Of a stretch of DNA of 32,607 nt, positions 1,459-31,555 are shown piece after piece. The notes under the pieces are model-generated. The model ran no database searches. It was not told the DNA's origin and saw only the letters and a program-made list of their open reading frames with translations. Positions within the stretch are counted from its first letter, which is position 1. The number at the start of each line of letters is the position of its first letter. Made by a program: the position numbers and the translations under genes. This DNA is from a virus, in the IMG/VR virus record IMGVR_UViG_3300035204_001742, positions 1 to 32,607 of that record. The stretch is one strand, 5' to 3'.

Positions 1459-1962
1459 TTACTTTTTGATAAGGTATATTTCTTTAATAATCGTATCTTT
1501 TCCAAAAAATGTTTTGATATTTTTGTCCACGGGGAAGCACATCCAATGATAATTTAGGTTGTTTTTTCGTTTAACTAAAACCAAAGCGGTATCCTCATTT
1601 TCGTTAAGTTCTTCCAAGTCACTTACATTGACGATCCTAAACCCATGTTTCTTTAAAATACTTTTTAATTCTGTTGGGAATGTTATTTCCCTGCCTTCCA
1701 TGCTAAATACGCAGGCTATTTCCCGAAGGAGGTTGGCGCAGGAAGGACTACTTTGCATTGAGTGACTCAAGTCTTCTACGCTAATATAAATCCCAAACCG
1801 AAGGAATACCTTATGAAGCGCTTTCGGACCGCAGCTATATACGTGGTAAGGGTCTAAATTTTTAGCTCTTTGTTCTTTAACGTGGTTCGAGGTCCTTAAG
1901 CTTTGGAATACCCCACAACCCGACATAATGAAAGTTAAAAAAAGAGCTATAGTAAATCTCAT
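1459..1962 (-). CDS. Putative lipoprotein with a C39-like cysteine-peptidase fold
   Basis: This 167-residue protein begins with a short hydrophobic signal ending in a lipobox-like M-S-G-C, placing the lipidated Cys at residue 16. That suggests export to the periplasm and membrane anchoring. The rest resembles the papain-like C39 peptidase superfamily. Cys44 sits in a CGPKAL motif (the family usually has CGPxAL), about 95 residues later there is a His in YHWMCFPVD (His139), and Asp146 follows. The helix after the Cys and the stretch LKSILKKHGFRIVNV also fit. Family members cleave peptide leaders or act as non-catalytic modules. In a phage it could act in lysis, envelope defence or exclusion of other phages, which is inference. 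The RGTGTAAT element lies 8 bases before the ATG. Confidence 0.65.
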   Translation of the reverse strand: MRFTIALFLTFIMSGCGVFQSLRTSNHVKEQRAKNLDPYHVYSCGPKALHKVFLRFGIYISVEDLSHSMQSSPSCANLLREIACVFSMEGREITFPTELKSILKKHGFRIVNVSDLEELNENEDTALVLVKRKNNLNYHWMCFPVDKNIKTFFGKDTIIKEIYLIKK

Positions 1963-1991: not shown

Positions 1992-2993
1992 TTATTTATT
2001 TTGATTTTCTAAAACTTTTAAAAGCTCCGTTTCTTTTTGCATGATTTCAAATTGAGCTAGTTTTAAGTTTCTTAGTTCTCTTATGATGGTTTTGGTTTTG
2101 TCAGAGTCTTCTTCTGGCTCGCTATGATTCGAGGTCAAGCCCAAGTTGTCGGGGGTATAGATTTTCCCTTCTTCTGTCACTCCTGACCGCAGGTAGTTCA
2201 TGAATACCTTGGGGTATTTGAGGTCATGAACATTTTTAATTTTAATTATGTTATGAATTCCTTCTGTAGTTATGTTTCTTTCTAAGTCTATGTATTTAAG
2301 CAGTAGGGATTTTTGTGTTCTCCCTTTTAGAGATTCGGGCATTAACATATTTTGATTGGATATAAATTTTTCAATATCCGCCTCCAAAATTGTATAGTCG
2401 CCCTGAAAGTACTCGAATGACTTTTTTCTATAAGAAAGAATTTTAAAGTAAATTTCTAAATTTATGTTTCTATACAAGTCCAGAAATTCTTCCTCTCCCT
2501 TCAATAAATCTTCTTTAGTGGCAGACAAGTAAGATATGTAATCCCCCATTCCACAAAAATCAACATCAAATAAACCCACTGATTGAAAAAAATCTCTATG
2601 AGCGGCCATACCTCCCCAAGACATGGATTCGCCGATTTTAACTAGTTTATGATCGTCTAACAACTTGGAGACGTTGTTAGCCCAATCATCTTCTTTTACG
2701 GTCATGTCGCAGTCCATCCATATTAACTTCGTGTATTTAGATGGAACCTTTGAAGATAGTATATTAATTGCATTTTCCCTTACCCAAATAGGAAAAAATA
2801 CGGTCTCATAAAAATAGTTATCCTTGTTACAAAGGTTGTTTATTTTTGGAGAGTCTCCTTCGGAAAAAATTTCAATTATATAGAAGGGTACGCCCTGTTG
2901 CTCTAGCCCTTTTTTGAATTCCATAAAACCCTTAACCCTTAAGGGGTTGTTATCAAAATCTAGAAAAGGAGCTATTACAGCAATATCGTTCAT
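1992..2993 (-). CDS. GT-A type glycosyltransferase
   Basis: This 333-residue protein probably transfers a sugar from an activated nucleotide donor. A GT-A-like N-terminal half is visible: the opening strand (IAVIAPFLDFDNN), then WMDCDM with a DxD-type pair (Asp94, Asp96) expected to hold the divalent metal and nucleotide sugar. The segment WGGMAAHRDFFQSVGLFD is typical of GT2/GT7-type enzymes. The C-terminal 40 residues are a charged helix, perhaps a coiled coil. It shares an ATGA overlap with the FtsZ-like gene and lies far from the main glycan module, among late genes. That makes glycosylation of a virion protein a reasonable guess. Donor and acceptor cannot be read from the sequence. Confidence 0.75.
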   Translation of the reverse strand: MNDIAVIAPFLDFDNNPLRVKGFMEFKKGLEQQGVPFYIIEIFSEGDSPKINNLCNKDNYFYETVFFPIWVRENAINILSSKVPSKYTKLIWMDCDMTVKEDDWANNVSKLLDDHKLVKIGESMSWGGMAAHRDFFQSVGLFDVDFCGMGDYISYLSATKEDLLKGEEEFLDLYRNINLEIYFKILSYRKKSFEYFQGDYTILEADIEKFISNQNMLMPESLKGRTQKSLLLKYIDLERNITTEGIHNIIKIKNVHDLKYPKVFMNYLRSGVTEEGKIYTPDNLGLTSNHSEPEEDSDKTKTIIRELRNLKLAQFEIMQKETELLKVLENQNK

Positions 2994-4132
2994 CTTGTTA
3001 TTGGTGGATTCGCTAATCCTCCTATGGCAGTAAAGATTGTCAAAGCTGGCCTATCTCCACTGTAAATGCCCCTATGGACAACGCCTCCGCCCCTTAGCAT
3101 TTTGTTGAGCTGATCAAGCGCTTTGTCTATGTAGCTCTGAGGAAGTTCACCAAGTATTTCTTCGCTCGCTATGATAATAACCCCAGCCCTATCGGCTGTT
3201 GAGATATCTGCCATTCCGGACAATAGGCTATTTTTAACATTATCTCTAACCACTCTAGAGAAAGCAACGGGGTCATCCCACTTCTTAACCGTAGAAACAC
3301 CAAAAGCAACCGTCCCGGAATCTAATATCGTTTTATAGTCGTTCTTGTCAAAGGACGAATAACTACTATCTTTGTTTGAGGTTAAGTTAAACAGGTGAAA
3401 TAATCCTGCCACATTAGAATTTGCCGTATCCCAAAATTTAGTTACGGAAAGATTTGGGTATAGTTGACCTATTTTTTCATTATCAAGAATAATTAACGGC
3501 GATATTATACCTTTGTTTTTTAAATTGACCGCATCATGAAGTGCTTTCGCTGCGTTAGACAATACCTTTTGTCCTTCGGATTTCTTAGGAAGCGTCAAGA
3601 TTACTCCCACTTTATTCTTTAAAGCGCCGTTTAGACTGTTTTGAAGCTCAAAGGCGGTTTCTACCAAGGGACCCACCATTCCACTTCCTGATCCTCCACC
3701 TCCTCCGGCGCATACAAAAATTCTATCGAATGATTCGCCGAATGAATAACGCATGAAATCCAATACGTCTTCTTTTTTGCCTTGAAAAATTTCCTTAGCT
3801 AACTCTGGCTGCTTGCCCGCGCCTCCATCACCGATGCAAAGCTTATTCTCTAGGGAAATTGTATTTAAATCTTGTTGAGCCATATTAATTGCCGCGACCC
3901 TATTATATCCTAGCCCTTTAAAGGTTTGAGCTATTCTTCCGCCGCCTTGCCCTGCGCCGATAAAAGCAAACTTAAATGGAACATCTACATCATCTTGTAT
4001 TTCGTTTTTGTAAATTTTTTCGTCTTCAATTTCCTCTACGCTAGGCACTAATATATCTTCAGGCAGAGAGATGTCTACGCCCTCGTTATAAAGAGATTTG
4101 ATTTTGTCTTCGTTGTTTTCGTTGTTTTCCAT
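2990..4132 (-). CDS. FtsZ/tubulin-like GTPase
   Basis: This 380-residue protein is a phage member of the tubulin/FtsZ superfamily, GTPases that polymerise into filaments. The nucleotide-binding half shows the T1 loop (GAGQGGGR, about 59-66), a T3-like GDGGAGKQPE (about 101-110) and the tubulin signature loop T4 (GGGGGSGSG, about 143-151). The T7 loop reads FDKNDYKTIL (about 261-270). Both aspartates matching the FtsZ catalytic pair (NxDFxxD) are present at 262 and 265. A C-terminal activation domain follows (about 315-380). About 50 acidic residues precede the core. I start at the ATG at 4132 because the 29 earlier codons of the open frame lie inside the previous gene. Phage relatives position DNA, form a nucleus-like compartment or segregate plasmids. 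This one looks more FtsZ-like than PhuZ-like, so interference with host division is also possible. Confidence 0.88.
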   Translation of the reverse strand: MENNENNEDKIKSLYNEGVDISLPEDILVPSVEEIEDEKIYKNEIQDDVDVPFKFAFIGAGQGGGRIAQTFKGLGYNRVAAINMAQQDLNTISLENKLCIGDGGAGKQPELAKEIFQGKKEDVLDFMRYSFGESFDRIFVCAGGGGGSGSGMVGPLVETAFELQNSLNGALKNKVGVILTLPKKSEGQKVLSNAAKALHDAVNLKNKGIISPLIILDNEKIGQLYPNLSVTKFWDTANSNVAGLFHLFNLTSNKDSSYSSFDKNDYKTILDSGTVAFGVSTVKKWDDPVAFSRVVRDNVKNSLLSGMADISTADRAGVIIIASEEILGELPQSYIDKALDQLNKMLRGGGVVHRGIYSGDRPALTIFTAIGGLANPPITR

Positions 4133-4149: not shown

Positions 4150-7100
4150 TTACGAACAATCTCCCGAGCCAATGCTTGCCCCTATGCTGTCCAACTCTGA
4201 AGTCCAATCTGCGCTCCAAGGGTTAGCTGCATCATCATCACTAGAGGCCCAGTAATTCTGCGTGTTGTCGCCCCATTGGTCAGAGGTTATAATCCAACCT
4301 TGGGTTGATATATCGTGTTGGTGCCACATAAATAAAGCAGCGCCATTGGCGTACTGATTCCACCACACCGGATAAGTCGATTGATTTGTTAATGTATGAT
4401 ACGGAACCCAAGTAGTATCAATCGAGGGATACCCCGGCGCATCTATACAGAAATTTGCCGTACCTTCTGGATAACAATGCTTTCCGTTGGGTAATTCTGT
4501 TACGGTAAAACCAGCGTTAGTCCAAGCTTCTCCCCAAGGATTTGAGTTATCGCCAGTACCATCACTGACTGCAACTACGTCATTAAGAACATCATCACAA
4601 GAAGACGTAGAGATTGCCCACCAGTCGTACCAGTCGCTATTAGATAAGTACAAAGTGGTTCCGTCTGGAGCATTATTGGTATACTCGATTGCGTTCATCC
4701 AATGACACGTGGTGCCGTTAGGTGTCCAAGTGGTATTTAATACCCAGTCAGGAATTGGGTGAAAATCATCACCGTACGGGTATCCGTTCATGCTCTGAAC
4801 GATACAAACATTTGACGGAACGCAAGCGCCGGAGTCTACATAGATTCCCTCAGTAGTCCATGCGGTCGTCCAAGGATTACCAGCGGTGCCGACAAAATCG
4901 CTTACATATTCCGCAATATATCCTCCCCCCAAACATGGTACATCCGCAATTATCCAAGTCCCGCCAGAGGAATCCCACGACATATAATAAGTATATCCCC
5001 CGCGATGATTTTGAAAATATTCAAGTTGAGAATTACACCCGCCGCCAGCCGTATAAAGCCACCAGTCTCCATCTATGTCGCTATTGCCAGTGCCTGTTAC
5101 GCACATTACGGCGGGCGCAGCTGTCGTAGTGGTTGTACAAAGCGTATCATTTATAAGGGGGTCAGATGGAGTTAGCCAACCAGAGCTACCAGCGGTTACC
5201 GCAGTCCAGTTGGCGTGGGCTACGTCGTATGGTAACGCAACATCCTCGCTGGAAGTGTATGCCCATGACCAACTTGTCGGGTTAGCATCAGTGTTGTGTG
5301 CTATTACCCATTGACCCCCGCCGTAAGTCGTCCAGAATATCCATCCTGAGCCTCCCGGCGGGACGGGATTTGGGTCTACCTTTTTATATTGAACTTTTCC
5401 AGCCTCTAAGCTTGGTTCGCGATCATATTGACCATTTACGCGATCTTCATCTATCGATCCAGAATTTACAGCCCCAACCACACAGATTGTCGATTCTCCA
5501 CCAAAATCGTCATTTGTAATTTGCACTTCATGCACTGCTGACCCAACGATTTTCGCCGTTACCCCGGATACATTAATGCTTGGGTTTGACAGAGTAACGT
5601 TGAAATACTCATTATTTTCAAATGTTCCATCGCCGTTTATATTTACAGCAATTACCTGATTAGCAACCCCAGAAGCAAAAGTCAAAGTGCTACTAACAAG
5701 GTCGTAGTCTCCGTTCGCCGTGGTAGCAGTTCCATCGCTTGTCGTATAGTCAACGGTTAACGTGCCTCCAGAAATAACACCAGTGGGGTCTGAGTCTCTT
5801 TCAACATTGATGGAGTGCGCAACCGAACCAGAATTTCCCTCTGTCGTAACTATTGAAGACGAAAGCGTAAAGCCTACGGTAACCTCATAAGCTTCGATCA
5901 TGGTTATGACGTTTTCTGCTGCGGTTGGCATATTGGGGCAAGAATTACCGCCTGTACAGCTTCCACCTTCGTCTGCAGGCCATATGATAGAAGCAGGACC
6001 GCCTACTTGAGTTGGACTACTTAACACTACCTTAAATGTTTCGTCGCCATTTATTGAAGTGTCACCTTTAGCGTCAACTGTAATAGTTTTACTTGTTTCA
6101 CCGGCGGCAAAACTGAGTGTCCCACTCGCGGGAATATAGTCTGCCCACGCTACAGCAGTAATGTCAGCCGTTGCATAACTTACTGTTGCTGCCGTGGAGG
6201 TATTGCCTGATCGTGTAACCGTCAAAACAACATCAGCTCCAGCCACTTCATTAAGTGTTTGGGCAACTATGGTGCTCCAAGCAAAATACGTCTCCGCTGC
6301 TGGCGCGGCAGTGGTAGTTGTCTGGCAGGTTATGTTTGTATCGTTAATCGACGATAATTCAAAAATATTTCCATCATGAACCCACCTGTTGTCAGCCAAG
6401 CCAGTATACGGACAATCTCCACCGGGAGCGTTCTTGTGAAGATTTGTTTTCCCTGTGTAAGCTGAAGTGCCGGCGTCCCATGAATCGTAAAAAATATTCC
6501 ACCCATAACCACCGGGGAAATTTTGCGAGTTCCAATTTAGTAAACCAAATTGATTTGAATCGTTTGGATCTTCTATACGGTAAACAGGATGACTGTCAAT
6601 TCCGGTCGAAAACCAAACCCATTCTCCATTCATCCAGTCATACGGCATGCCGCAAGCATAGACCGAACAAACACAGTTATATCCTACCCCACACTCCTGA
6701 GCCGACGAGGTTGTTGTCGTTGTCGCGGCGGGTAAATTAACAATAGTTACTGTATGAGTTGGGCTTGGCAAACTAACCGTGCCAAGTGACCAAGTTGCGT
6801 TAGAAAGAGTAACTGTAAATAACTCATCCGCTTCATCCCAGCCTCCATAAATTGCCGCTGTTATTTCTATAGCTATGGTTTTAGATGACTCTCCCGCTTG
6901 AAAAGATATAGACGCATTACTCGAAGGAGGAACATAATCTCGCTCTGGACCAGACCCGGTAGCAGTTCCGTCAGTCGTACTATAAGCTACGGTAGCAGTG
7001 CCAGTTGAATCGCTTCTATTAACAGTAATATATAAAACTTGGTTATTGATTGCTTCTGTAATGGAAGAGGTTGCGGCAGCCCACGCCATTGTCATTGAGC

Positions 7101-7527
7101 CGGGTGCATCAGTTGTTGTGGTTGTCGTTGTCGTAGCTGCTGGAGTGGTAGTAGTAGTTGTTGCGCCGACTTGACTTCCTGAGCCTGCTCCGGTTGTGTC
7201 AGAGAAATGAGGCCCAATAGCGTAGGTAACCGTTACTTCTCCCCCCTGCATATCTGTATAAACAGCTTGACCGTTAGGAACGGGAATAGGAGCTCTGAGA
7301 TGATTGTTTCCTTGGTTTACGTTACAAAGATGTACGCCTCCCCCGTTGGGCCCAGTGCCTAATTTTCCTGAAGCAGAACAACCGCATTCAATAACATCCA
7401 TTATAACGATATTTTGGTGAGCCATTGGCGCGGGAATAAGCAAACCATTATTGCTCGTTAAAAAAGCGGAGTTCCTGCTTATATTTAACTGAGTACTACG
7501 TAAACCTGTGTGTCTAAATCTACTCAT
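4150..7527 (-). CDS. Large modular virion protein with Calx-beta domains and Thr-rich linkers (fibre or adhesin)
   Basis: This 1125-residue protein is probably a surface fibre or adhesin that binds host or carbohydrate. After an N-terminal region of about 110 residues come Thr runs (about 122-139) and a Calx-beta-type domain (about 144-265). It shows the usual DGTA...DY and ITFAxGE...I landmarks; here the segment reads ISFQAGESSKTIAIEI. Further Calx-beta domains lie at about 412-545 and 548-675. Between and after them are five Cys- and Trp-rich modules (about 280-401, 680-797, 807-905, 906-1027, 1027-1125). These share patterns such as GWxIxxD and NPWxxxWT. Thr-rich linkers ending in AAPA separate the blocks at about 267-275, 402-411 and 798-807. 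No signal peptide is seen, as expected for a phage structural protein. The start overlaps the portal gene by 8 bases, which suggests coupled expression. Thr linkers could be glycosylated by the phage's own transferases (inference). Confidence 0.8.
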   Translation of the reverse strand: MSRFRHTGLRSTQLNISRNSAFLTSNNGLLIPAPMAHQNIVIMDVIECGCSASGKLGTGPNGGGVHLCNVNQGNNHLRAPIPVPNGQAVYTDMQGGEVTVTYAIGPHFSDTTGAGSGSQVGATTTTTTPAATTTTTTTTDAPGSMTMAWAAATSSITEAINNQVLYITVNRSDSTGTATVAYSTTDGTATGSGPERDYVPPSSNASISFQAGESSKTIAIEITAAIYGGWDEADELFTVTLSNATWSLGTVSLPSPTHTVTIVNLPAATTTTTSSAQECGVGYNCVCSVYACGMPYDWMNGEWVWFSTGIDSHPVYRIEDPNDSNQFGLLNWNSQNFPGGYGWNIFYDSWDAGTSAYTGKTNLHKNAPGGDCPYTGLADNRWVHDGNIFELSSINDTNITCQTTTTAAPAAETYFAWSTIVAQTLNEVAGADVVLTVTRSGNTSTAATVSYATADITAVAWADYIPASGTLSFAAGETSKTITVDAKGDTSINGDETFKVVLSSPTQVGGPASIIWPADEGGSCTGGNSCPNMPTAAENVITMIEAYEVTVGFTLSSSIVTTEGNSGSVAHSINVERDSDPTGVISGGTLTVDYTTSDGTATTANGDYDLVSSTLTFASGVANQVIAVNINGDGTFENNEYFNVTLSNPSINVSGVTAKIVGSAVHEVQITNDDFGGESTICVVGAVNSGSIDEDRVNGQYDREPSLEAGKVQYKKVDPNPVPPGGSGWIFWTTYGGGQWVIAHNTDANPTSWSWAYTSSEDVALPYDVAHANWTAVTAGSSGWLTPSDPLINDTLCTTTTTAAPAVMCVTGTGNSDIDGDWWLYTAGGGCNSQLEYFQNHRGGYTYYMSWDSSGGTWIIADVPCLGGGYIAEYVSDFVGTAGNPWTTAWTTEGIYVDSGACVPSNVCIVQSMNGYPYGDDFHPIPDWVLNTTWTPNGTTCHWMNAIEYTNNAPDGTTLYLSNSDWYDWWAISTSSCDDVLNDVVAVSDGTGDNSNPWGEAWTNAGFTVTELPNGKHCYPEGTANFCIDAPGYPSIDTTWVPYHTLTNQSTYPVWWNQYANGAALFMWHQHDISTQGWIITSDQWGDNTQNYWASSDDDAANPWSADWTSELDSIGASIGSGDCS

Positions 7528-9601
7528 TTTCTTCGTTCTTTATTGTGCTGTGAAATAGTATGCTTGCCATAAAAGTATCTAATTGATGTTTTATGGCGAT
7601 ATCCTCTACTCGTCTAACTTGTTCTGCGTTTTGATCTACTGGTTTTTCACAATATTTTGCTACGCACTCGCTCCACTTGTCGGGGGTTTCGTTGGAAATA
7701 ATTATGTGACTAATTGTTTCGGCCACCTCTTTTTGGTTTTTGGTAAGCCTTGTTTTCTTGTGTTTTTTTCTAAGCTCTTTTTGAACTAGTTTTTCTAAAT
7801 CTTGAGATTTTACGATATTTTGTTTTACGCCTTCAAAGCTAAAGTTTACTTCTGCCGTAGTTTTTTCTTTTTGAGGGATTCCCTTGGTTCCGGAAGGTCT
7901 TCCTACGTTGGGGGAAGTTGTTTGGCTTTTTTTGGGGGTAGTAGTTTTTGGTGCAGTTTTTTTGCTTGGGGGGGTTGTGTTCGTTTTTTGTAATTCTGGG
8001 TGAGCAACTTCTTGAGGTACCCACCCCTCCATGGCTGGGTTCTCTACGGGTGATCCACCAACTAGCGGAAAGTAAAGTCCTTCATCTCTGTCGTTTATAT
8101 ATTTCCTTTGCGAATCCATTGAGGTTTCTTTGTTCGGTAATTTGTTTGTATCGAGCGCCTCAAAAAGCTCTTCTGGCGTCAACAGTCCTAGTTCGGCCAT
8201 GCGAGTGTAGACCCTGTATTTTTCTGTATTGTCCCTTAAGAGAACTTCGTTTAATTTTGGAGTGGGATAATTTTTAAAACCGAGAGACTTAGAGATCCTT
8301 TTTATTTCAGGCGTAAGGAAGTCGTTCAGGAAAGCTAATCTAGCTTGCCTTAACCTTGCTATAAAAACTTCAACCTTTGAAGATATATTGGCAAATTTTT
8401 CTCCCCCAGTATCAACTCCCGTGAGCATATTGTTTAATCCAGAATTAATGTCGGCGTTGACAACGTCGTATTTTTTAGGATCTAAAATATCTCCAATTTG
8501 CGGTATTACAAATTTAGCATCAGTGGTATAATCCGCTATAAGAACTCTTCCTACGGATTGGTTCTCAAAAAGGTTTTGCATTTTTAGCAGATTTTCTTGA
8601 TTTATTCCACCCTTGTCTGGCTCTGTCCCCATGGTGACAAGAAGGATGGCCTGCTGAACGGTTCTCGTTATCGCCATGTCCATTCTTTTTAGTTCAGCCT
8701 TGTGATTTATATCTTCAAGAACTGGATACCCCATGGGAACACTAAAGGGTTCGTAGTCTTGTTTTTTGTAGAATACCGCATGAAATCTATCTGCGTCTAG
8801 AAGCATAAGGACCGCGTTAGAAAGAGGACTGCCTTTAATTTTCTTTTTTGTAGCAGGATCAAGCGCGTCGTATATTTCCCTATCTTCTTCTGTCTTAGGA
8901 TTTCTTACTCTCTCTAGCTCGTAGTCAGTAAGTACTTTATGATATTTTCTTGCTTGGCTAAAATTTAACGAACCTGAAATTTGTATATCTGCTGGGTTTA
9001 AAATCACATACCTAAATGGAATCTTTACGGTTTTAGCTTTTGCGCCAAATGTTTGGCTTATTTTTTTAATGTCAGCAGGCTTTAGCTTCGCATCAAACCT
9101 ATAGAAAAAAACATTTCCCGACCTGTAATACTCTCTAAAAAATCTATCTTGCAAGTCAAAAACATTTATCTTTTTAAAAAGAGATTCAAAAAACTTTTGA
9201 GATTTTTTACTTCCTCCTTCAAAGTAAATATCACTCGAAGAGAACTCTGTCATCAAGTCAATTGTATTCCTAAATACAGAAAAATTGTAATACGCTTTTT
9301 GACATAAAATTATGGCGTCCCTTATGGAGATTCCACTTTGCCCTGAGCCAGTATAAGTCTTGAACGGAATAAGACCCTTTTCAATGTTCGTAAATTTGTC
9401 GGTTCTTTCTATATTGCCTGACTTGTTCCTTCTGTAAGTTGAGGTGCTTGAGTCAGAATGAGAAACGGACTCAAGCGTATATCCTGCCGTTGATGTCATC
9501 AACGGTCCAATGGAAGCTTTCTCTTTCTTTGCTGTAGACGCCCTTGGCTTTCTTGGCTTTTTGGGAGCAGCGCTTTTTGGAGTTTCTTTCTTTTCCTTCA
9601 T
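7520..9601 (-). CDS. Portal protein
   Basis: This 693-residue protein most likely forms the ring at the capsid vertex through which DNA is packaged. Support comes from position right after the large terminase, size, and a portal-like core. The core includes FREYYRSGNVFFYRF followed by YVILNPADIQISG (about 155-210), a long middle segment with RTVQQAILLVTMG, then the DINSGLNNMLTGVD region preceding a helical stem. The N-terminus (about 1-30) and a stretch after residue 545 are Lys/Pro/Thr-rich and look disordered. The last 120 residues form a separate charged helical part, longer than in many portals, which could be a fused scaffold or tail-binding region. The gene starts 46 bases after the terminase stop and overlaps the adhesin gene by 8 bases. 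Confidence 0.82.
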   Translation of the reverse strand: MKEKKETPKSAAPKKPRKPRASTAKKEKASIGPLMTSTAGYTLESVSHSDSSTSTYRRNKSGNIERTDKFTNIEKGLIPFKTYTGSGQSGISIRDAIILCQKAYYNFSVFRNTIDLMTEFSSSDIYFEGGSKKSQKFFESLFKKINVFDLQDRFFREYYRSGNVFFYRFDAKLKPADIKKISQTFGAKAKTVKIPFRYVILNPADIQISGSLNFSQARKYHKVLTDYELERVRNPKTEEDREIYDALDPATKKKIKGSPLSNAVLMLLDADRFHAVFYKKQDYEPFSVPMGYPVLEDINHKAELKRMDMAITRTVQQAILLVTMGTEPDKGGINQENLLKMQNLFENQSVGRVLIADYTTDAKFVIPQIGDILDPKKYDVVNADINSGLNNMLTGVDTGGEKFANISSKVEVFIARLRQARLAFLNDFLTPEIKRISKSLGFKNYPTPKLNEVLLRDNTEKYRVYTRMAELGLLTPEELFEALDTNKLPNKETSMDSQRKYINDRDEGLYFPLVGGSPVENPAMEGWVPQEVAHPELQKTNTTPPSKKTAPKTTTPKKSQTTSPNVGRPSGTKGIPQKEKTTAEVNFSFEGVKQNIVKSQDLEKLVQKELRKKHKKTRLTKNQKEVAETISHIIISNETPDKWSECVAKYCEKPVDQNAEQVRRVEDIAIKHQLDTFMASILFHSTIKNEENE

Positions 9602-9647: not shown

Positions 9648-11474
9648 TTACACCATTCTGGGGGTAAATGTCGCACTTCCTTCGTTTAACTTATAATTTT
9701 GCATATCAAAGTAACATTTCGTTGCCCAGTTCACAAGTAATAATGCGGTATAATTGTCCTTTCTTGCTCTGTTCGCGCTAGTATTCCGCTTTAAGTGTTG
9801 CGGTAAGTCAAATGTCTGCGTTCCTCTCGCCGTGGTTTTTACCTCAACTAAGGCGCATTGTCTTTTAACTTGGTATACTAGATCATCTTGAGTTTCTATG
9901 AACATTCCCAAATTATCTTCATTAACTTGCTTTAAATTAATCTTGTAAGTGCTTTGTTTATCGAATTCGGAGCCATTAGCCGTGGTTTTAGAGCCAAACC
10001 ATATTTTCTTGTAGTCAATGTTGGCCTGTAAAAGTTCGTTAGCTTTCCTTATCCAATCGCTTGAAAAGACTTGATTGAACACTATTTGTCTATTTTCTTT
10101 GTTATACGCTCTTTTAAAATCTCTTACTTGTTTAATATAATCTGTGCCTTCCTTGTTGGAATCAAACTCAATTGTTTTTAAGCTAATCCTGTTGTCCAGA
10201 AAAAGCTTAGAATTGTTGGAAGCATCAAGAAACATGTCCGACCCAGCATTGTCAACAGAAATTAAAACTGGATCAAAATTCTCTAATATATAATAAAGAT
10301 ATTGTACGTGTTTATTTAGGTTGCCTAATCCAGCATAATTATGTACCAACGTAGAGGTTTCTTTCTCTTCGTCAATTTCCATTATTGCTATACCAAAGTA
10401 GTCCGCGCTTGGGCTATCGCTCATGTTGGGGTCAATGCCTACTATGTATTTTTTGTCTTGTCTTCCTTTTATAAGAGTTGTTGGTTCTTCTCCGTCTGGG
10501 ATAGTGCATGCGTGCATTTTGATGGCGCTAAAATAACTATCACTTCCATCCGTAAACATAGCACAATACTCACGTTGAAAAGAAGCGTTAGATGTCCCCC
10601 CATCTTGGGCCGCTTCAATGATGGTTTGATCAATCATGTGTTCTGGTAAGGCCTCGTACCCCATTTGAGAAATAAAATACGAAGAGTCTGATTTTTTATC
10701 ATCATAAACATGATTCGCCCAATCTTTATAAGTTTTATATAGATTTTCGAACGTATAAGAAGCAGAGGATAGAGCTATCATTTTAGAGTCATTTTCGAAA
10801 ACCATTCTATCTTCTTCTTTCATATGTTTTGACTCAATTAATTTATCCTCCATTTCCCTGATCTCTATGCGCTCCTTCATGTTTTGCGGAGCTACCAAGA
10901 ACGGCATGAGAACTGTGTTGATCAAATCTTCAGGCAATAAAAGATACTCGTCTAGCAAAAGTACGTTTGCGCGAAAACCACGAATCTTTTCTCCGTTAAG
11001 CGGAATTGCAGTAATTGTCCCTCCATTAATAGACCATTCAAACTGGTCATTACGCTTTACTTTCGCTCCAAAACATTGAGCTAACAATTCTGCGCCTTTA
11101 GACTCTACTAATTTTTCCAAATTACTAAATATAAATCTTGCCGTACGAAAAGTTGGTCCAGCCACAAGAATTTTAGTTCCCGGATTAAAAATACATTGCA
11201 AAAAACAAAACACTGAAGCTATAAAAGTTTTGCCACAGCCACGACCCCAGACGCACATGCTAAAATTTCTGTTCATCATTCCCCTGAGAGTCACTTCCTG
11301 AAAAGGAGCAAGCTTAATACCTGAAATCAATTCTGTCGTAAAACCTAGGTTGGCGTGCAAAAATTTTGCCAATGTCATCTTGGCTTCTCTGTCCGACAAA
11401 AAGCCTTCTATTGACATCATTTTTTCGTTGATGTTTTCCGGCTCGATTTCGTATTTTTCAGGGCAATACCACAT
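9648..11474 (-). CDS. terL: Large terminase subunit (packaging ATPase and nuclease)
   Basis: This 608-residue motor protein cuts and pumps phage DNA into the capsid. The ATPase half has a terminase-type Walker A (WGRGCGKT, about 76-83), Walker B plus catalytic acid (VLLLDE, about 171-176) and a coupling motif (ALSSAS, about 234-239). The RNase H-like nuclease half shows its acidic residues in VGIDPN (Asp348), ISVDNAG (Asp408) and near the end in RARKDNYTA. Length is in the normal T4-type range. The ATG overlaps the TAA of the preceding nuclease gene by one base (TAATG), so the two are probably translated together. The identity is secure, and this is the best single gene for placing the phage by phylogeny. 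Confidence 0.96.
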   Translation of the reverse strand: MWYCPEKYEIEPENINEKMMSIEGFLSDREAKMTLAKFLHANLGFTTELISGIKLAPFQEVTLRGMMNRNFSMCVWGRGCGKTFIASVFCFLQCIFNPGTKILVAGPTFRTARFIFSNLEKLVESKGAELLAQCFGAKVKRNDQFEWSINGGTITAIPLNGEKIRGFRANVLLLDEYLLLPEDLINTVLMPFLVAPQNMKERIEIREMEDKLIESKHMKEEDRMVFENDSKMIALSSASYTFENLYKTYKDWANHVYDDKKSDSSYFISQMGYEALPEHMIDQTIIEAAQDGGTSNASFQREYCAMFTDGSDSYFSAIKMHACTIPDGEEPTTLIKGRQDKKYIVGIDPNMSDSPSADYFGIAIMEIDEEKETSTLVHNYAGLGNLNKHVQYLYYILENFDPVLISVDNAGSDMFLDASNNSKLFLDNRISLKTIEFDSNKEGTDYIKQVRDFKRAYNKENRQIVFNQVFSSDWIRKANELLQANIDYKKIWFGSKTTANGSEFDKQSTYKINLKQVNEDNLGMFIETQDDLVYQVKRQCALVEVKTTARGTQTFDLPQHLKRNTSANRARKDNYTALLLVNWATKCYFDMQNYKLNEGSATFTPRMV

Positions 11475-12433
11475 TATAAAACTTTCGTATCGTACGCGTA
11501 CTGGAGATCTATTTTTTTATAAAAACACCCACTAAAAAATATTTTTTTAATTACTCTTTCCGCCTCTTTCCTGCCACCCACAAACAGGAACTGAATGTGT
11601 GGGTATTTTTGTATTAGCTCTCTTACGTTATGAAATATGTATTCTGGCGTTGCTTTTATTTTCTTTGATATATGGGGCAAATATTTAAAACTAACGGCGT
11701 GAGCCAAGGTGTCTTCTACTAAAATGATTAAGTTAATTTTTTCGTCTTCCGCTCTTATTATTTCTTTTTCAAATCTATCTAAGTTTTTGACGCTCATGGT
11801 AGAAATAAAGTCAGCCAAAGATTTTCTTTCTATATAGCAGTTACAGGTTAGCTTGGGCTCGCTAAAAGTGTAGTCCCCCACGGATAACGTCGTGGACCTA
11901 GTGCGGTAATCATCAAACTTTAAGGGGAGTTGCTCTCTTGTATCTATATGTATAGAATATTGCGGCTTCGCGTACTCTTTTCCTTCAACTATTTCTGAGG
12001 GTAATTGATATTTATTTTTAAACCCCATTTCTTCACAGACCTTGTAGTATCCATCTAGAATTTCTCGCAGATATTGAATGGGTGGCGAAAGTATTGTCCT
12101 AAGTTCTACTTGGGTTGGAGTATAAATAAGACCCTTGTCGTTTTTTCTTTTCAATAAAGTATTTTTACAATAAGTCGCCGCTTCATCCTTCTCAACAGAT
12201 TTAAGCCAAAGTCGAAGATTAGTTCTAGAATTAAAGTCTGTCGAAAAATATTGTTCTAAGGTTTTATATTTAATAATGTCATTATTGTGAAGATCATACC
12301 TTGGGAAATACTTTTGATAATACCCTACAACCCTTAAATCGTGAGCTTTAAGATGAGCGTGTAATTGTCTATGCGTTTCAAATTCTTTTTGACAGGCCTG
12401 ACAAGTCGGAGCTGGAACAATGACACTACTCAT
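11474..12433 (-). CDS. C2H2 zinc finger fused to an ERCC4-type nuclease domain
   Basis: This 319-residue protein joins two recognisable modules. A classical C2H2 finger occupies residues 11-31 (Cys11, Cys14, Phe18, Leu24, His27, His31, with exact canonical spacing). An ERCC4/XPF-type nuclease domain lies at about 158-300. It shows HIDTREQ (Asp164, Glu167), VGDY (Asp187) and the diagnostic IERKSLADF (Glu202, Arg203, Lys204, Asp208). XPF relatives cut branched or bubble DNA 5' of the duplex junction. No tandem HhH is evident after the nuclease. It ends exactly at the large terminase start (TAATG). A role in preparing or resolving concatemer DNA for packaging is therefore plausible, but this is inference from position. 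DNA repair or recombination is the alternative. Confidence 0.87.
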   Translation of the reverse strand: MSSVIVPAPTCQACQKEFETHRQLHAHLKAHDLRVVGYYQKYFPRYDLHNNDIIKYKTLEQYFSTDFNSRTNLRLWLKSVEKDEAATYCKNTLLKRKNDKGLIYTPTQVELRTILSPPIQYLREILDGYYKVCEEMGFKNKYQLPSEIVEGKEYAKPQYSIHIDTREQLPLKFDDYRTRSTTLSVGDYTFSEPKLTCNCYIERKSLADFISTMSVKNLDRFEKEIIRAEDEKINLIILVEDTLAHAVSFKYLPHISKKIKATPEYIFHNVRELIQKYPHIQFLFVGGRKEAERVIKKIFFSGCFYKKIDLQYAYDTKVL

Positions 12434-13523
12434 CCAAAACCTCTCCCTTGCTTAGTCCTAAAATTCTGCACTTAATTTCATCCATGCCAGTCAAGTTTTC
12501 TACCTCGTCTGACACAGCTTTTTTTCTTATGTTCGCTAGCTGTATTAGTTTCTTTCTGCTTTCCTCTTCCTTCCAAAGCTGAACAAGGTTTAGAACGCTA
12601 GCGTTTTCTTTAATTTTGTTTTTAAGTACATCGCTTCTTTTTTGCTTTAGGGAGTCCAGTAGTTTTTGCTGTCTATTGATGCATTGGTTGTATTCTGTCT
12701 GCGCGGAACTGATAGCGTCTACAAGGGCCATGGCAATACGCCTTCCCTCTGTGTCTTCGGCCGCGGTATCAAGCAGCTCCTGAAGTCTTTCCGTTCTTCT
12801 TTGAATGCTGGCCGCAATAATGACTTCGGTAGAGAGGACTATGTATTGATCCACCTCTTCTTGAGACAAATCTGGCTTGTCGTGGGTATATCTTATAAAG
12901 CTGCTCTCAAACAGCTCTCTGTCTGTTTGTGATGAGTAGGTATTAATTTGATGGCTAAACCTATAAGTACTTAAATAGTTTATCAAAGAATCGATATTCT
13001 TTTTGATAGAGCTTGTGATTTTGTTTTTATCGATTTCGTTATTAACATATCTATTTACTGTATTAACGGTTTTGTCAAACGTTTTTGGCGGCTTATATTC
13101 CGAGTTGGGAACCTCATTGGGGTTTTCGTACGGTTCTAAATCTAAAGATTTTATGTGGTCATTTACAGATCGAACTTCTTGATGGAGATTTGTAAGCTCA
13201 TTGTCAGCAAATATAATGCAAGCTATCTCTCTTCCGTTCATCATAGAAGCATTGCTTTCTACGAATTGTTTTTGTTCTTCTGTAAGGTTTATTTTTTCTT
13301 TAGCTTGGTATTCGTGAGCGCCGTGAGCTTTTATTTTTCTTGTCGCAAGAAACGCTTTAATTTCTCTACCCTCTTTGCTCCTGCCGTCTAGATCTGGTCT
13401 GTCGGGGTAAGCTATTCTTATTAACTCTAATAAAGCAGGAGGATTTTCTAACCTAGAGTTCCACTCGTTGAGAATTTTTTCTTTCTGCTCCGAGCTTAAG
13501 GAATTATGTTGAGACGAGCTCAT
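12426..13523 (-). CDS. HTH-like N-terminal protein, candidate small terminase or DNA-binding factor
   Basis: I do not recognise this 365-residue protein with certainty. The N-terminal 110 residues look like two helical DNA-binding units. One includes SSEQKEKILNEWNSR followed by DGRSKEGREIKAFLATRKI, and the second is LTEEQKQFVESNASMMNGREIACIIFAD, each with a helix-turn-helix-like pattern. The middle is a linker of about 50 polar residues. The C-terminal half is long amphipathic helices rich in Arg/Lys/Glu that could form coiled coils. It lies two genes before the large terminase, and no other small-terminase candidate is visible, so it may fill that role. It overlaps its neighbours by 8 and 20 bases. 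Confidence 0.7.
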   Translation of the reverse strand: MSSSQHNSLSSEQKEKILNEWNSRLENPPALLELIRIAYPDRPDLDGRSKEGREIKAFLATRKIKAHGAHEYQAKEKINLTEEQKQFVESNASMMNGREIACIIFADNELTNLHQEVRSVNDHIKSLDLEPYENPNEVPNSEYKPPKTFDKTVNTVNRYVNNEIDKNKITSSIKKNIDSLINYLSTYRFSHQINTYSSQTDRELFESSFIRYTHDKPDLSQEEVDQYIVLSTEVIIAASIQRRTERLQELLDTAAEDTEGRRIAMALVDAISSAQTEYNQCINRQQKLLDSLKQKRSDVLKNKIKENASVLNLVQLWKEEESRKKLIQLANIRKKAVSDEVENLTGMDEIKCRILGLSKGEVLDE

Positions 13524-14121
13524 TTTCTTTTTCTTTTTCTAGGTTTTCTTTTTCGCTTTTTTGTTCTGTTTTTTCCCGTTCTTCTTGGCTTTTTTTTTGC
13601 GCTTGCTCCGCCTCAATAAAAGGCTCCCAGTACTTATCTCCATAATTTACGAGCAACTCTTCTCCGGGCTCTATGTTCCTTATTGCTGTTAAATAAATAA
13701 TAGGCTCATTTGGGACTATGAAATAAGTACAATTGTACCCCGCTTCTATTGACATGTTTAGTTTCTTCTCCGGATCTTGCTCCTCTTCAATAGCTTTTTC
13801 TCTGTTCGTATGATTTCTTGCGTCATTCACAAAACAGCCTAACCCCATTTCTGCTTTACAAAGAGCAGGGTGCGATTCTATGTATAATCCTGACGGCGGA
13901 TGGGCTTGCGTATATATAAGGGGCGGCGTTGAGAACCCGCTCTGCCGTGTATATTCGTATCGTTGACGAGGAACATCTAAGCTGTCAAATGTTTCTCCTT
14001 TGTATTCGCACGAGGGTGTTCCTGCTCCGATTGGCACTCCCGTGAATACCCCTACTCCAGCGCCCGGAATTGCTGAAGCTCCAAGATATATTCCATTGGC
14101 TAATTTGTCGTGTATTTTCAT
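13504..14121 (-). CDS. SET-domain protein, putative protein lysine methyltransferase
   Basis: This 205-residue protein carries a compact SET domain over about residues 10-170. SET enzymes move a methyl group from S-adenosylmethionine to lysine. Visible landmarks are GAGVGVF and CEYKGE (about 20-42), a FVNDARNHTN segment (about 97-106) standing where canonical SET domains have NHxxxPN, and the closing GEELLVNYGDKYW (about 153-165) with the expected catalytic-type Tyr160. An insert of about 20 acidic residues follows the third motif. The last 35 residues are a Glu/Lys coiled-coil-like tail. It overlaps the sigma-like gene (ATGA) and the HTH-like gene. The target is unknown: ribosomal, nucleoid, polymerase or virion proteins are options. 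The altered third motif means activity should not be taken for granted. Confidence 0.8.
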   Translation of the reverse strand: MKIHDKLANGIYLGASAIPGAGVGVFTGVPIGAGTPSCEYKGETFDSLDVPRQRYEYTRQSGFSTPPLIYTQAHPPSGLYIESHPALCKAEMGLGCFVNDARNHTNREKAIEEEQDPEKKLNMSIEAGYNCTYFIVPNEPIIYLTAIRNIEPGEELLVNYGDKYWEPFIEAEQAQKKSQEEREKTEQKSEKENLEKEKENELVST

Positions 14122-14825
14122 AAGTAGTCTACCTCATCCTTTTTTAGGCATTTTTTAACCTTTTCTATAATTTTTTTTCTTAAATTTTTAATTTGTTTAT
14201 AACCGGGGGTTCTGTTCTTTTCGTTTGATTTGAACCCCATTTCTTTCGCCACTTCCTCCTCTGTATTGTTGTTAATAAACAATCCTTCGTAAACAAGCCA
14301 TTCGTTCGGCTTTAGTTTAGTCTTCATTTCTTCATGTAAATTTGCGGCAAACTTACCTAAGTTTATGTTGTCTTCAAAGCAAACCGGGCTTACTTCATGA
14401 GAGTGATCTTCCAAGGCTAGCGGAATTTTAATCTCATATGCTGATTTTTTAGTTTTTTCCCACTTAGCGTATAGCGGGCATTCAGCGCATTGAGAGTTAT
14501 ATATATCGCATCCATTGTTTGGCCTAGCTGCTTCACATTTTAAACATGGTCTACTAAAGTTTCCATAATTATTTCTTATAAGATTTTTTATCTGATTAGA
14601 AATTATTCTATTTACCCAAGGGCCTAACGGCTTGCTTGCGTCATATAAGTGCCATTTTTCATGTATATGAATTCTTATAATTTGCGAAACATCATCGTAA
14701 TCCATCCAGTGAAGCGATGTTAAGTTCCATTTGCCTCTTCTTTTGGTAATTTCTTGATCAATAAAACCAATGCTTTCTTCGAATGTGGGCTTTTTAGTTG
14801 TGTCTTTCTTTTCATTCTTGCTCAT
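14118..14825 (-). CDS. Phage sigma-like factor with a Cys cluster
   Basis: This 235-residue protein is probably an RNA polymerase sigma factor that redirects host polymerase to phage promoters. A region-2-like helix set (about 40-85) includes MDYDDVSQIIRIHI and LGPWVNRIISNQIKNLIR, close to the -10-binding helices of sigma-70 proteins. It is followed by an unusual cluster C94-x2-C97, C106 and C113-x2-C116 that could bind zinc. A region-4-like HTH is suggested near the end (about 185-230: TEEEVAKEMGFKS followed by a basic helix). Overlaps of 14 bases with the zinc-ribbon gene and 4 with the SET gene place it in one operon with packaging genes, as expected for a late regulator. The recurring RGTGTAAT element is a candidate target, though this link is untested. 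Confidence 0.72.
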   Translation of the reverse strand: MSKNEKKDTTKKPTFEESIGFIDQEITKRRGKWNLTSLHWMDYDDVSQIIRIHIHEKWHLYDASKPLGPWVNRIISNQIKNLIRNNYGNFSRPCLKCEAARPNNGCDIYNSQCAECPLYAKWEKTKKSAYEIKIPLALEDHSHEVSPVCFEDNINLGKFAANLHEEMKTKLKPNEWLVYEGLFINNNTEEEVAKEMGFKSNEKNRTPGYKQIKNLRKKIIEKVKKCLKKDEVDYL

Positions 14826-15201
14826 TTTCTGTAGAACGCCTACTGTCCCTTAACGTTCCGGCCTCTTTTCTGTATTGTTCTAGAACCTCTTTCTTCGAGG
14901 GGGTCGGAAAATTTACGGGAGACTGATTTGTGTGGCTTGGCTCATCTAACGTACCCATGAGAGACTGAAGGTTCTCTTTTTTTACCTTCAGATCCTCGGT
15001 GTCTAAATCGAAATCTAAGCCTTGCATGTTACCTCCTACGTTAACCACCGTAGCGTCATCGAAGTCATCTTCAATTACGCCTCCTTCGTTGCCAGCGGCA
15101 AGCGAAGACTCCAGCGGTTTTCCACATTGTGCGCAAAATTTTGGCCTTTCTTTAATTAAGAATTCCATTTTTGCCCCACAATTAAAACAATACTTTTTCA
15201 T
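14812..15201 (-). CDS. Small zinc-ribbon protein
   Basis: This 129-residue protein has an N-terminal zinc ribbon with two CxxC knuckles (Cys5, Cys8, Cys23, Cys26: YCFNCGAK and FCAQCGKP). An acidic and Ser/Thr-rich remainder follows, probably disordered, with a helical stretch near the end. Similar ribbons occur in nucleic-acid and ribosome-associated proteins and give no specific function. It is the first gene of the late operon that continues through the sigma-like factor to the terminase, so it may be regulatory. It starts at the ATG at 15201, shortly after a -10-like element. Confidence 0.72.
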   Translation of the reverse strand: MKKYCFNCGAKMEFLIKERPKFCAQCGKPLESSLAAGNEGGVIEDDFDDATVVNVGGNMQGLDFDLDTEDLKVKKENLQSLMGTLDEPSHTNQSPVNFPTPSKKEVLEQYRKEAGTLRDSRRSTENEQE

Positions 15202-15209
15202 ATACGATT

Positions 15210-15218
15210 ATTATATCA
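15210..15218 (-). promoter_or_regulatory. Extended -10-like promoter before the late operon
   Basis: The minus strand reads TGATATAAT, a perfect extended -10 (TGnTATAAT), eight bases before the ATG of the zinc-ribbon gene. No good -35 is evident. Transcription from here would be almost leaderless. It lies at the only clear break in leftward gene order in this part of the window, which supports a promoter. Confidence 0.4.
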
Positions 15219-15254
15219 CTTTTTTGTTTTTTTTAAAATAAATATATTTTTCAT

Positions 15255-15262
15255 AGTGTAAT
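15255..15262 (+). promoter_or_regulatory. AGTGTAAT element before the rightward ORF
   Basis: This is the same 8-base core found before several leftward genes, but here on the plus strand, 17 bases before the ATG of the 63-codon rightward ORF. An AAGG between it and the ATG could serve as a Shine-Dalgarno. Its orientation supports the reality of that ORF. Confidence 0.35.
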
Positions 15263-15279
15263 TAAAATTAAGGCAAAAA

Positions 15280-15471
15280 ATGAAAAAAGAACTAAAAGAA
15301 ATCATGTCGTTAAGCTTTCCTTTTTGCAAGAATCCCGATAAGCAAATTGCTCTATTTTTTCAAAAAATAAACTCATTGGCGCACGAAACGGAAGTCTATA
15401 TAGAAAGAAACGGTTTAAACAAAAAGAACCACTGGACCAATCAACATAACAAAAATTATCACGGATCTTAA
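15280..15471 (+). CDS. Small unknown protein, the only plausible rightward gene
   Basis: This 63-residue ORF fills the only sizeable gap between leftward genes and does not lie opposite any other gene. The protein (MKKELKEIMSLSFPFCKN...) is helical in its first two thirds and ends in a His/Asn-rich tail (NQHNKNYHGS). It resembles nothing I know. Support comes from its exclusive use of the gap, an AAGG ten bases before the ATG and the AGTGTAAT element upstream. It converges on the stop of the next leftward gene with only four bases between. Phages often keep small host-interaction genes in such places, but no function can be assigned. Confidence 0.5.
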   Translation: MKKELKEIMSLSFPFCKNPDKQIALFFQKINSLAHETEVYIERNGLNKKNHWTNQHNKNYHGS

Positions 15472-15475
15472 CGGG

Positions 15476-15793
15476 TTACAAAAGGCCCAGATAACTTAAA
15501 TATTCGTCCGGAGTGTTAAGCTTAATTAAAATTTCCTCGCTTAATGAGTCAGGTATTCCTTCTTCTAGGTTAAACCCTTCTGCTTCCGCCCACTCCCATT
15601 TTTTAAGATTCACTCGAAAGCAATTTAGCATATTGTGAATTTTTCCTTCTTGTATAGCTAGGCAAACTAACTTTTTCCCAGAAGAAACAAAAATGACATG
15701 CTCTACCATGGTTTCCATGAGAGAAATAGATACGCCCTTTTCCTTGGATAATGATTTTAGATTTTCGAATTCTTTTCTTAATGCGGCGTGCAT
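15476..15793 (-). CDS. Unknown small protein after PhoH
   Basis: This 105-residue protein is not recognised. It is mostly helical, with a central hydrophobic strand pair (VEHVIFVSSGKKLVCLAIQEG) and an acidic C-terminal half. There is no signal peptide or membrane segment. The start is well supported: a strong Shine-Dalgarno (GAGGAGG) precedes the ATG, which directly follows the PhoH stop with no gap, so the two are probably translated together. Confidence 0.78.
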   Translation of the reverse strand: MHAALRKEFENLKSLSKEKGVSISLMETMVEHVIFVSSGKKLVCLAIQEGKIHNMLNCFRVNLKKWEWAEAEGFNLEEGIPDSLSEEILIKLNTPDEYLSYLGLL

Positions 15794-16588
15794 TTATTCC
15801 TCCTCAGCAAATTCGTGAATTTTTTTAACTAAAAACTTAACCAACTCTGATCTCATGATGTCTTCCTCAGAAAATTCAAACGAGTATATGCCCATTTTAA
15901 TACTTTCTTCGTCAGAAAAAATATGAGACAGTCCTTCGAACCCGCCGTGAGAGCTTTCATTCTTCAGGTCTGTCTGCATTGGGTCAGCCAAGATAAAACA
16001 CCTACACCCCTCCCCCATTCTGGTAAGTACAGTTATAATTTCCTTTATTGAGCTATTTTGGGCCTCGTCAAGAATGACACATTTATATTTCCAGTTCATA
16101 CCTCTGGCAAAATTAACGGGAAACATGGAAACTCTTTTTTGTTCTTCTAGCTTTTGAGCATTACTTTCCGTTAGTAGTTCTTCCAGCTTATCAAGAAAGG
16201 GCAGGTTGTAAAACCTTAGCTTTTCGTTTGCGTCCCCGGGCAAATATCCTAAGCTTTTGTCTGAGCTTTCCACCGCAGACCGTAAGTACATTATGTCGTT
16301 GGCAGCCTTCATGTTTAGAAGCTGAAGGCCACAGTATACAGAAAGCAGGGTCTTCGCTGTTCCCGCTGGACCATTGACAAAAACTATGTTAGTAGAAGGG
16401 TCTAGGGCTACTCTAAAAAATTCTTTTTGTTTTTTGGTCCAAGGAAATTGATTTATTTTAATTTGCCTTTTTATTGGATTTGGAGCCGTTTTTAGTTTTC
16501 TGCTTGTTTCTGTTAAGTTTTCTGCGGTTTTTCTATCTCCACGAATTTTTACTTTACTCTTCTGGCTCGAGTCATTGCGATCTTTCAT
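15794..16588 (-). CDS. phoH: PhoH-like ATPase
   Basis: This 264-residue protein belongs to the PhoH family of P-loop ATPases, common in marine phages and related to helicase-type NTPases. Walker A is GPAGTAKT (about 73-80) and Walker B is VILDEAQN (about 171-178). The family blocks PFLDKLEELL and RGMNWKYKCVILDEAQN are also present, and ILADPMQTDL lies further on. About 45 basic residues precede the ATPase core. The cellular role is not settled: RNA metabolism and phosphate-stress functions have both been proposed. The start overlaps the WbqC-like gene by 17 bases, and an AGTGTAAT element lies 10 bases before the ATG, inside the end of that gene. Confidence 0.93.
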   Translation of the reverse strand: MKDRNDSSQKSKVKIRGDRKTAENLTETSRKLKTAPNPIKRQIKINQFPWTKKQKEFFRVALDPSTNIVFVNGPAGTAKTLLSVYCGLQLLNMKAANDIMYLRSAVESSDKSLGYLPGDANEKLRFYNLPFLDKLEELLTESNAQKLEEQKRVSMFPVNFARGMNWKYKCVILDEAQNSSIKEIITVLTRMGEGCRCFILADPMQTDLKNESSHGGFEGLSHIFSDEESIKMGIYSFEFSEEDIMRSELVKFLVKKIHEFAEEE

Positions 16589-17240
16589 GTTGCTGAAGAT
16601 TACACTCTTTTTTAAGGAAATGGTTGTAAGAATGGTTTGTCATCAGGTCGTCCATGATCGAACACTTTCCGTTGTAAGATATGAAGTTACTTACTTTAAT
16701 GCCGTTTCTGAGGAATTTTTCCGAATTACTTGGGGTTTTATCCAGAGAGTAATAGATTGAAGCCTTTTCCTTTCTGCAAATAGTTAAAATTTTATTTTCT
16801 ATAGAACCCTTTACATTCGGGTATTCAATAGAAGAAAAAGAAAACTTTGTATTGTCCTTGAAGAGGCTGGATATTTTAAAAACACTATAAGCAGAAAGAT
16901 GAGAAATGCTGTCTGTTGGTAAACTTATCGCCTCTTCTATAATAGGAAACACTAATGAAAAATTAGAGCAATATTTATACTCAAGATTAATCATTTTTAA
17001 AAAGTTCTTTTTCCATTTTTCATTTTTAACTTTGACATCTTTTATGTTTAACTGTTTGTAGTTGTTTATGGGTATCCTGAAATAAAAATCCTTTGATCTT
17101 ACTTTTAGCAGGGTTTTGTTTACCCAGCTTTTATTATTGTAATATACATCATCAAGGAAAATAACTTTATCAACCCTTTTTACTAAATCATAATAAGATT
17201 TATACGGAAAAAAATTAGGTTGAAGAATTGCCAATTTCAT
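16572..17240 (-). CDS. WbqC-like protein (copy 1)
   Basis: This 222-residue protein matches the WbqC family, found in polysaccharide and sugar-modification clusters. The family opening is clear (MKLAILQPNFFPYKSYYDL, then VDKVIFLDDVYYNNKSWVNK), as is the later block with SIENKILTICR and a short conserved end. Biochemistry of the family is poorly defined. It is often next to DegT aminotransferases and acyltransferases and is thought to help add an acyl or amino-acid group to an aminosugar. A very good Shine-Dalgarno (GGAGGAG) precedes the ATG, which overlaps the stop of the oxygenase gene (TAATG). A second, divergent WbqC gene lies at 25922-26623. Confidence 0.85.
   Translation of the reverse strand: MKLAILQPNFFPYKSYYDLVKRVDKVIFLDDVYYNNKSWVNKTLLKVRSKDFYFRIPINNYKQLNIKDVKVKNEKWKKNFLKMINLEYKYCSNFSLVFPIIEEAISLPTDSISHLSAYSVFKISSLFKDNTKFSFSSIEYPNVKGSIENKILTICRKEKASIYYSLDKTPSNSEKFLRNGIKVSNFISYNGKCSIMDDLMTNHSYNHFLKKECNLQQHERSQ
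16599..16606 (-). promoter_or_regulatory. AGTGTAAT element before phoH
   Basis: This is the minus-strand AGTGTAAT core 10 bases before the phoH ATG, inside the last codons of the WbqC-like gene. It could allow phoH to be transcribed separately from the glycan module. It shares core and spacing class with the other elements in this window. Confidence 0.3.
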
Positions 17241-20549: not shown

Positions 20550-20558
20550 AATTTTATT

Positions 20559-21335: not shown

Positions 21336-21336
21336 T

Positions 21337-22889: not shown

Positions 22890-22890
22890 T

Positions 22891-28124: not shown

Positions 28125-28133
28125 ATCGAATTA

Positions 28134-28448: not shown

Positions 28449-28453
28449 TCTTG

Positions 28454-29794: not shown

Positions 29795-29795
29795 A

Positions 29796-31507: not shown

Positions 31508-31514
31508 AATTCCT

Positions 31515-31542: not shown

Positions 31543-31555
31543 TTAAATACCGCAC

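Follow-up and report, generated by a model that had tools for sequence, protein, structure and literature searches.

A tubulin-superfamily GTPase of an uncultured large phage belongs to a separate clade of phage tubulins and may form filaments

Do large phages outside the nucleus-forming group build cytoskeletons of their own? This question is raised by one gene in a 32,607-nucleotide stretch of viral DNA (IMG/VR record IMGVR_UViG_3300035204_001742, positions 1 to 32,607; hereafter, the window), which belongs to an uncultured large virus of bacteria. To our knowledge, nearly all phage cytoskeletons described so far belong to nucleus-forming phages (PhuZ) or to one plasmid-like prophage (TubZ). 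An earlier note had read the gene as an FtsZ/tubulin-like GTPase with an intact T7 catalytic pair; its coordinates were right, and the open reading frame runs on the minus strand from an ATG at 4132 to a stop at 2990, encoding 380 residues.

Positions 2990–4132, minus strand: tubulin-superfamily GTPase, 380 aa (profile, structure-sequence and fold matches).

Sequence profiles and a predicted structure identify the gene product as a phage-encoded GTPase of the tubulin/FtsZ superfamily. The protein exceeded the gathering cut-off of the Pfam Tubulin family (PF00091; E = 5e-9, 37.1 bits, cut-off 33), and its best sequence match among solved structures was TubZ (4ei7; E = 1e-14), followed by FtsZ and CetZ. 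An AlphaFold model built from a 43-sequence alignment, used instead of one with only seven close homologues (pLDDT of 52), presented a two-domain tubulin fold with a mean pLDDT of 87.5. Structural comparison, as proposed in the earlier note, gave the best matches with B. cereus TubZ, CetZ2, and FtsZ (VIA-align Z of 35.1, 34.3, and approximately 31, respectively, over approximately 300 residues); across TubZ, CetZ, and FtsZ structures, Z ranged from 29 to 35. The fold and the T7 pair are thus held in common with bacterial FtsZ, but the FtsZ-like identity suggested for the protein did not hold up: although TIGR00065 (FtsZ) matched with an E value of 2e-15, the score of 56.8 bits falls far short of the equivalog cut-off of 295.2, the linker and C-terminal peptide of FtsZ are missing, and the protein groups away from FtsZ in the tree described below.

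The loops that bear on GTP binding and hydrolysis map as follows.

Positions 3935–3958, minus strand: T1 loop, residues 59–66, GAGQGGGR (G59AGQGG64xR66; alignment of 90 homologues).
Positions 3797–3832, minus strand: T3 loop, residues 101–112, GDGGAGKQPELA (G101-GGAGKQPELA; motif alignment).
Positions 3680–3706, minus strand: T4 glycine-rich loop, residues 143–151, GGGGGSGSG (CAG-GGGGSGSG; alignment of 90 homologues).
Positions 3335–3355, minus strand: T7 loop, residues 260–266, SFDKNDY, with the predicted catalytic pair D262/D265 (invariant in 90/90).

The T1, T3, and T4 loops that had been read from the sequence are all present, as is a T6 motif (D217-N218-E-K). Among 90 non-redundant homologues (effective number approximately 46), both aspartates of the T7 pair were identical in every protein, as were D217 and N218 of T6, the glycines tested in T1 (G61, G63, and G64), T3 (G106), and T4 (G146, G147, G149, and G151), and K107 and D47. 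The tubulin gene is under strong purifying selection, with dN/dS between 0.016 and 0.061 for the 25 closest pairs of homologues. A viral filament system, one of two roles offered in the earlier note, is well supported by a superfamily GTPase with an intact T7 pair, from which we infer polymerisation. Taken together, the predicted fold, the sites, and their constraint make it very probable that GTP drives the protein to assemble head to tail into filaments and is hydrolysed at the subunit interface; bound GTP would lie between the T1–T6 loops, and on stacking the T7 aspartates of one subunit would supply the missing part of the following subunit's GTPase site, yielding dynamic filaments.

The view that PhuZ looks different from this protein stood for the T1 and T4 loops, the arms, and the clade, but not for the T7 pair: in the alignment, the PhuZ proteins of phiKZ, Phabio, RAY, and Aphrodite1 also carry D-x-x-D in T7, so that the pair cannot separate the window tubulin from PhuZ, in which catalysis is known to depend on D190 or D198 (PMC4244570, PMC10299810). 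PhuZ of phiKZ, 201phi2-1, RAY, and other Chimalliviridae is also alike in its phage-encoded tubulin fold and its accessory status. In contrast to PhuZ, the family to which the window tubulin belongs has a full GGGxGxG in T4 and DN[ED]K in T6, and its arm is N-terminal, whereas PhuZ has a C-terminal acidic knuckle that is absent from the window tubulin; in the model, the window tubulin ends 7 residues past the last strand, with no tail. In the PHROG search its sole match was phrog_17961, and phrog_4733 (“tubulin PhuZ”) gave no match at an E value of 0.1. Judged from sequence, the distinguishing features are GxGQGG in T1, GGGxGxG in T4, DNE[KR] in T6, a tail-less C-terminus, and an acidic N-terminal arm.

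Pattern scans of IMG/VR for relatives yielded 69 and then 371 viral stretches. In a maximum-likelihood tree, a 96/98 branch set off the viral family, and PhuZ (100/100) and FtsZ (100/100) formed groups separate from it, while the deep branches did not resolve the position of TubZ; given the long branches deep in the tree, we rely on it for two points alone, that the viral family is monophyletic and that it is distinct from PhuZ and FtsZ. The tree of the tubulin superfamily proposed earlier therefore recovered a viral clade, but one that joins neither FtsZ nor PhuZ, and sequence comparison sets the relatives apart as a clade of their own, distant from both. The nearest outsiders seen were plasmid TubZ and gp138 of Bacillus phage G. 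While the window tubulin had zero matches among 50,697 cultured phage records, a divergent member of the family matched gp138 (“putative FtsZ-like cell division protein”), the only cultured-phage relative found with an annotation of its own. This protein has the T1, T3, T4, and T7 loops, with FDKND in T7; however, it is 26.7% identical to the closest member tested, begins at the first strand without the arm and its motif, falls outside the viral clade, and is encoded near nucleotide-metabolism genes. The closest predicted viral structure, BFVD A0A6J5RW92 (“FtsZ Cell division GTPase” of an uncultured Caudovirales phage; E = 4.6e-30), is 24% identical and annotated by similarity only. A 37%-identical relative was found on a 3.3-kb high-GC contig (L077) of an Anaerolineae MAG (Chloroflexota bin), which represents either a host link or a mis-binned virus; this contig and a second MAG contig, L076, may be mis-binned virus.

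Our preferred reading, to which we give an even chance, is that the window tubulin is a member of a distinct phage tubulin clade forming dynamic filaments that place capsids or DNA without a phage nucleus. The filaments could instead segregate or hold phage DNA in the manner of TubZ partition systems, for example in a plasmid-like or pseudolysogenic state, with the help of a DNA-binding adaptor. TubZ/RepX (Bacilli plasmids and C. botulinum phage c-st) has the top structural Z, though tied with CetZ2, DN[ED]K/R in T6 is common to plasmid TubZ and the viral family, and among bacterial plasmids no closer matches were seen than TubZ-like proteins of Bacilli, which are about as distant as gp138. 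The loci differ, however: a small gene (approximately 100–115 aa) is located just upstream, in the position of TubR, in 4/4 plasmid TubZ loci but not in the viral loci, where the tubulin follows a portal, a fibre, or an unrelated gene. Scans for iterons found none near three viral genes, whereas repeats were present upstream of the small gene in one plasmid control (L197); the model has no C-terminal helix or tail for TubR binding. Partition of this kind is, in our judgement, rather unlikely. A gene encoding 173–178 aa was found directly upstream of the tubulin in several loci of the 200–230 kb phage type (L122, positions 5450–5986, and relatives); it had no Pfam or PHROG matches and is a possible partner.

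The N-terminal part of the protein has the following features.

Positions 3977–4132, minus strand: acidic N-terminal arm, residues 1–52, low confidence in the model (17 D/E and 4 K/R).
Positions 4043–4075, minus strand: arm motif, residues 20–30, DISLPEDILVP (conserved in an otherwise variable arm).

The acidic character that had been pointed out for this N-terminus is borne out by its composition. The arm motif has the family consensus D-[IV]-x-[LVM]-P-[DE]-I-P-x-P, with weighted conservation of 0.93 for D20, 0.92 for P24, 0.79 for I27, and 0.98 for P30; P[DE]IP is present in 55 of the 90 homologues. The pattern occurred once per genome, in the tubulin only, in five contigs of relatives (G001, G002, G003, the first 80 kb of G007, and G036). 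We rejected a general function in targeting proteins to capsids, as the pattern is confined to the tubulin among all proteins of G001, G002, G003, and the G007 part.

The core of the FtsZ C-terminal peptide is [DE]-I-P, and the P-[DE]-I-P of the arm, as a lead, recalls it. Under the other role offered in the earlier note, a decoy of host division, the protein might poison or hijack the host Z-ring directly or by competing for FtsZ partners through the arm motif. Small phage proteins often inhibit FtsZ, as do lambda Kil, T7 gp0.4, and T5 Hdi (PMC3961180, PMC4944311, PMC10714956). Mimicry of the FtsZ peptide was nevertheless rejected as the main reading of the motif, given that [DE]-I-P alone fits, the FLR part of the peptide is missing, and P[DE]IP is confined to the fraction of homologues given above. 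Similarity to FtsZ is approximately 20%, which makes co-polymerisation unlikely, and a passive decoy would not need GTPase sites of its own, so that their strong constraint and invariance would be left unexplained. With no positive evidence found for it, we consider a decoy unlikely.

For the preferred reading, a role of the arm in filament assembly is the most economical hypothesis, since the acidic C-terminal tail of phiKZ PhuZ docks on the next subunit (PMC3678025) and the N-terminal arm could do the same job. The conserved arm would then do for the filament what the C-terminal tail does in TubZ and PhuZ, binding either the adjacent subunit or a partner that many hosts share. Because the motif is kept in phages without a detectable homologue of the window portal or MCP, the portal is a less likely partner than a host factor or the filament itself; the binding partner of the motif is a testable question raised by these data.

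The genes around the tubulin in the window are the following.

Positions 1992–2993, minus strand: next gene, whose ATG overlaps the tubulin stop (ATGA); read as a glycosyltransferase in the earlier note.
Positions 4150–7527, minus strand: Calx-beta repeat protein, 1125 aa, probable fibre or adhesin, upstream of the tubulin (PF03160, E = 2e-43).
Positions 7520–9601, minus strand: portal protein (weak Pfam and PHROG portal matches; tblastn match to the protein annotated as portal in Bacillus phages Staley and Slash).
Positions 9648–11474, minus strand: terminase large subunit (profile matches).

The gene had been described as lying after a virion protein and next to a glycosyltransferase. The former description agrees with the Calx-beta gene, which is a variable insert between portal and tubulin; the latter found no backing, as the gene at 1992–2993 had no glycosyltransferase match in Pfam or among PDB sequences and this neighbour is not conserved next to the tubulin. 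In the window lineage, the order is terminase, portal, tubulin, variable cargo genes, a protease/scaffold-like gene, cement, and an MCP-like gene; cement alone has a profile match, and the protease/scaffold and MCP labels come from a reading of sequences and gene order. Of the 99 non-redundant loci, 53 have a tubulin whose immediate upstream neighbour is the portal, with −23 to +10 bp separating the two; in 15 further loci, including the window, one or more genes intervene and the portal is at most four genes away. Because these 99 loci had been collected via the tubulin, a control scan was begun from the portal. Its 80 loci included 13 in which the tubulin came directly after the portal, 6 in which it followed within three genes, and 4 in which it had another position, while 25 loci had >4 kb downstream of the portal without a tubulin there; 14 of these contigs, all of them fragments (15.8–97 kb), were searched whole and had no tubulin match. 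The portal-based scan rules out the tubulin as a core gene of the portal lineage; the tubulin is common there and mostly keeps one position, yet it is accessory. Two loci, L256 and L276, present the same head-module order with no tubulin between the portal and the protease/scaffold-like gene, a natural absence.

Relatives in other phages presented a different setting. Three groups of large contigs were compared: G001/G002 (158–162 kb), in which very long tape-measure-like proteins were found and a sheath was not noticed, suggesting that they are probably siphoviruses; G003/G037 (211–230 kb, GC 52–54%), with a tail sheath in G003; and G036 (230 kb, GC 36%). Cross-lineage pairs have only 4–16 of approximately 180–320 proteins in common, and the tubulin was the top shared match in every such pair (384–464 bits, with the next best at 51–270 bits). 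The tubulin is approximately 50% identical in phages without a detectable homologue of the window portal or terminase, and in the unrelated 200–230 kb phages it is located elsewhere than after terminase and portal. Horizontal transfer combined with strong constraint is the simplest reading of this sharing. Since the tubulin is not adjacent to head genes in the other lineages, head adjacency may be a mere place of residence. In G001, both the gene for the terminase large subunit and the MCP-like gene are broken into two frames (25465–27305 and 45115–46271; L079 and L080), which may reflect a frameshift, an intron, or an assembly error; the tape-measure-like protein of G002 (11595–25973) has 4792 aa, which would suggest a very long tail.

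The portal adjacency, with gaps of a few bases, could also be explained by a structural or enzymatic head protein that makes no dynamic filaments, i.e., a GTPase acting with the portal or scaffold in procapsid assembly, or one that is packaged. The identity kept in phages in which no homologue of the window portal or terminase was detected argues against such a role, as does the arm motif, which is not common to any head protein; we regard this explanation as improbable.

Filaments that place or move their cargo remain the preferred reading, and PhuZ filaments are known to carry capsid traffic (PMC10299810). By analogy with PhuZ, and from the late-operon position in one lineage, the case for filaments that place or move capsids or DNA appears evenly balanced. 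In the window phage, the tubulin would be expressed late, from a head-assembly operon in which it follows terminase and portal either immediately or after one intervening gene. The most likely task of the filaments would be to place procapsids or replicated DNA or to move them, as in PhuZ systems but without a phage nucleus; a phmmer search with the phiKZ protein found no chimallin in six contigs (80 of 82.9 kb for G007), a weak negative as chimallins diverge strongly. A broader proposal, which we hold tentatively and at somewhat less than an even chance, is that phage tubulins include a third, widespread clade that does not depend on a phage nucleus and passes between unrelated phages; in ordinary large siphophages and myophages, it would supply the cytoskeletons by which capsids or genomes are placed, with the N-terminal arm motif as a universal assembly or host-docking element. 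The constrained clade occurs in hundreds of environmental phage contigs from at least three otherwise unrelated lineages, being portal-adjacent in one of them, suggesting that cytoskeletons may be far commoner in phages than the nucleus-forming ones suggest; if the proposal is true, filament-based spatial organisation would be widespread among large phages and not the speciality of one family. Phage tubulins as such are already known; what is new here is the separate clade, the other arm architecture, the wide spread, and the portal-adjacent home in one lineage. No description of the clade was found in the literature searched, which left preprints and most subscription papers outside; a chimallin/PhuZ survey (Sun et al. 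2025, BMC Genomics) might cover part of it.

Several other genes of the window were also noted. A small lipobox protein (1459–1962, minus strand) has an SCGP..AL motif similar to that of C39 peptidases, with a Pfam E value of just 0.047; a gene of this type lies downstream of the tubulin in 32 loci of the first set and is a candidate envelope or superinfection protein. A SET-domain protein (13504–14121, minus strand; PF00856, E = 5e-10), a possible protein methyltransferase, is encoded near the phage head and packaging genes. A large island of sugar-nucleotide and surface-modification genes (16572–31555, minus strand) contains duplicated segments, which pair 16572–17240 with 25922–26623, 22891–23379 with 28454–29839, and 22047–22919 with 28134–28448.
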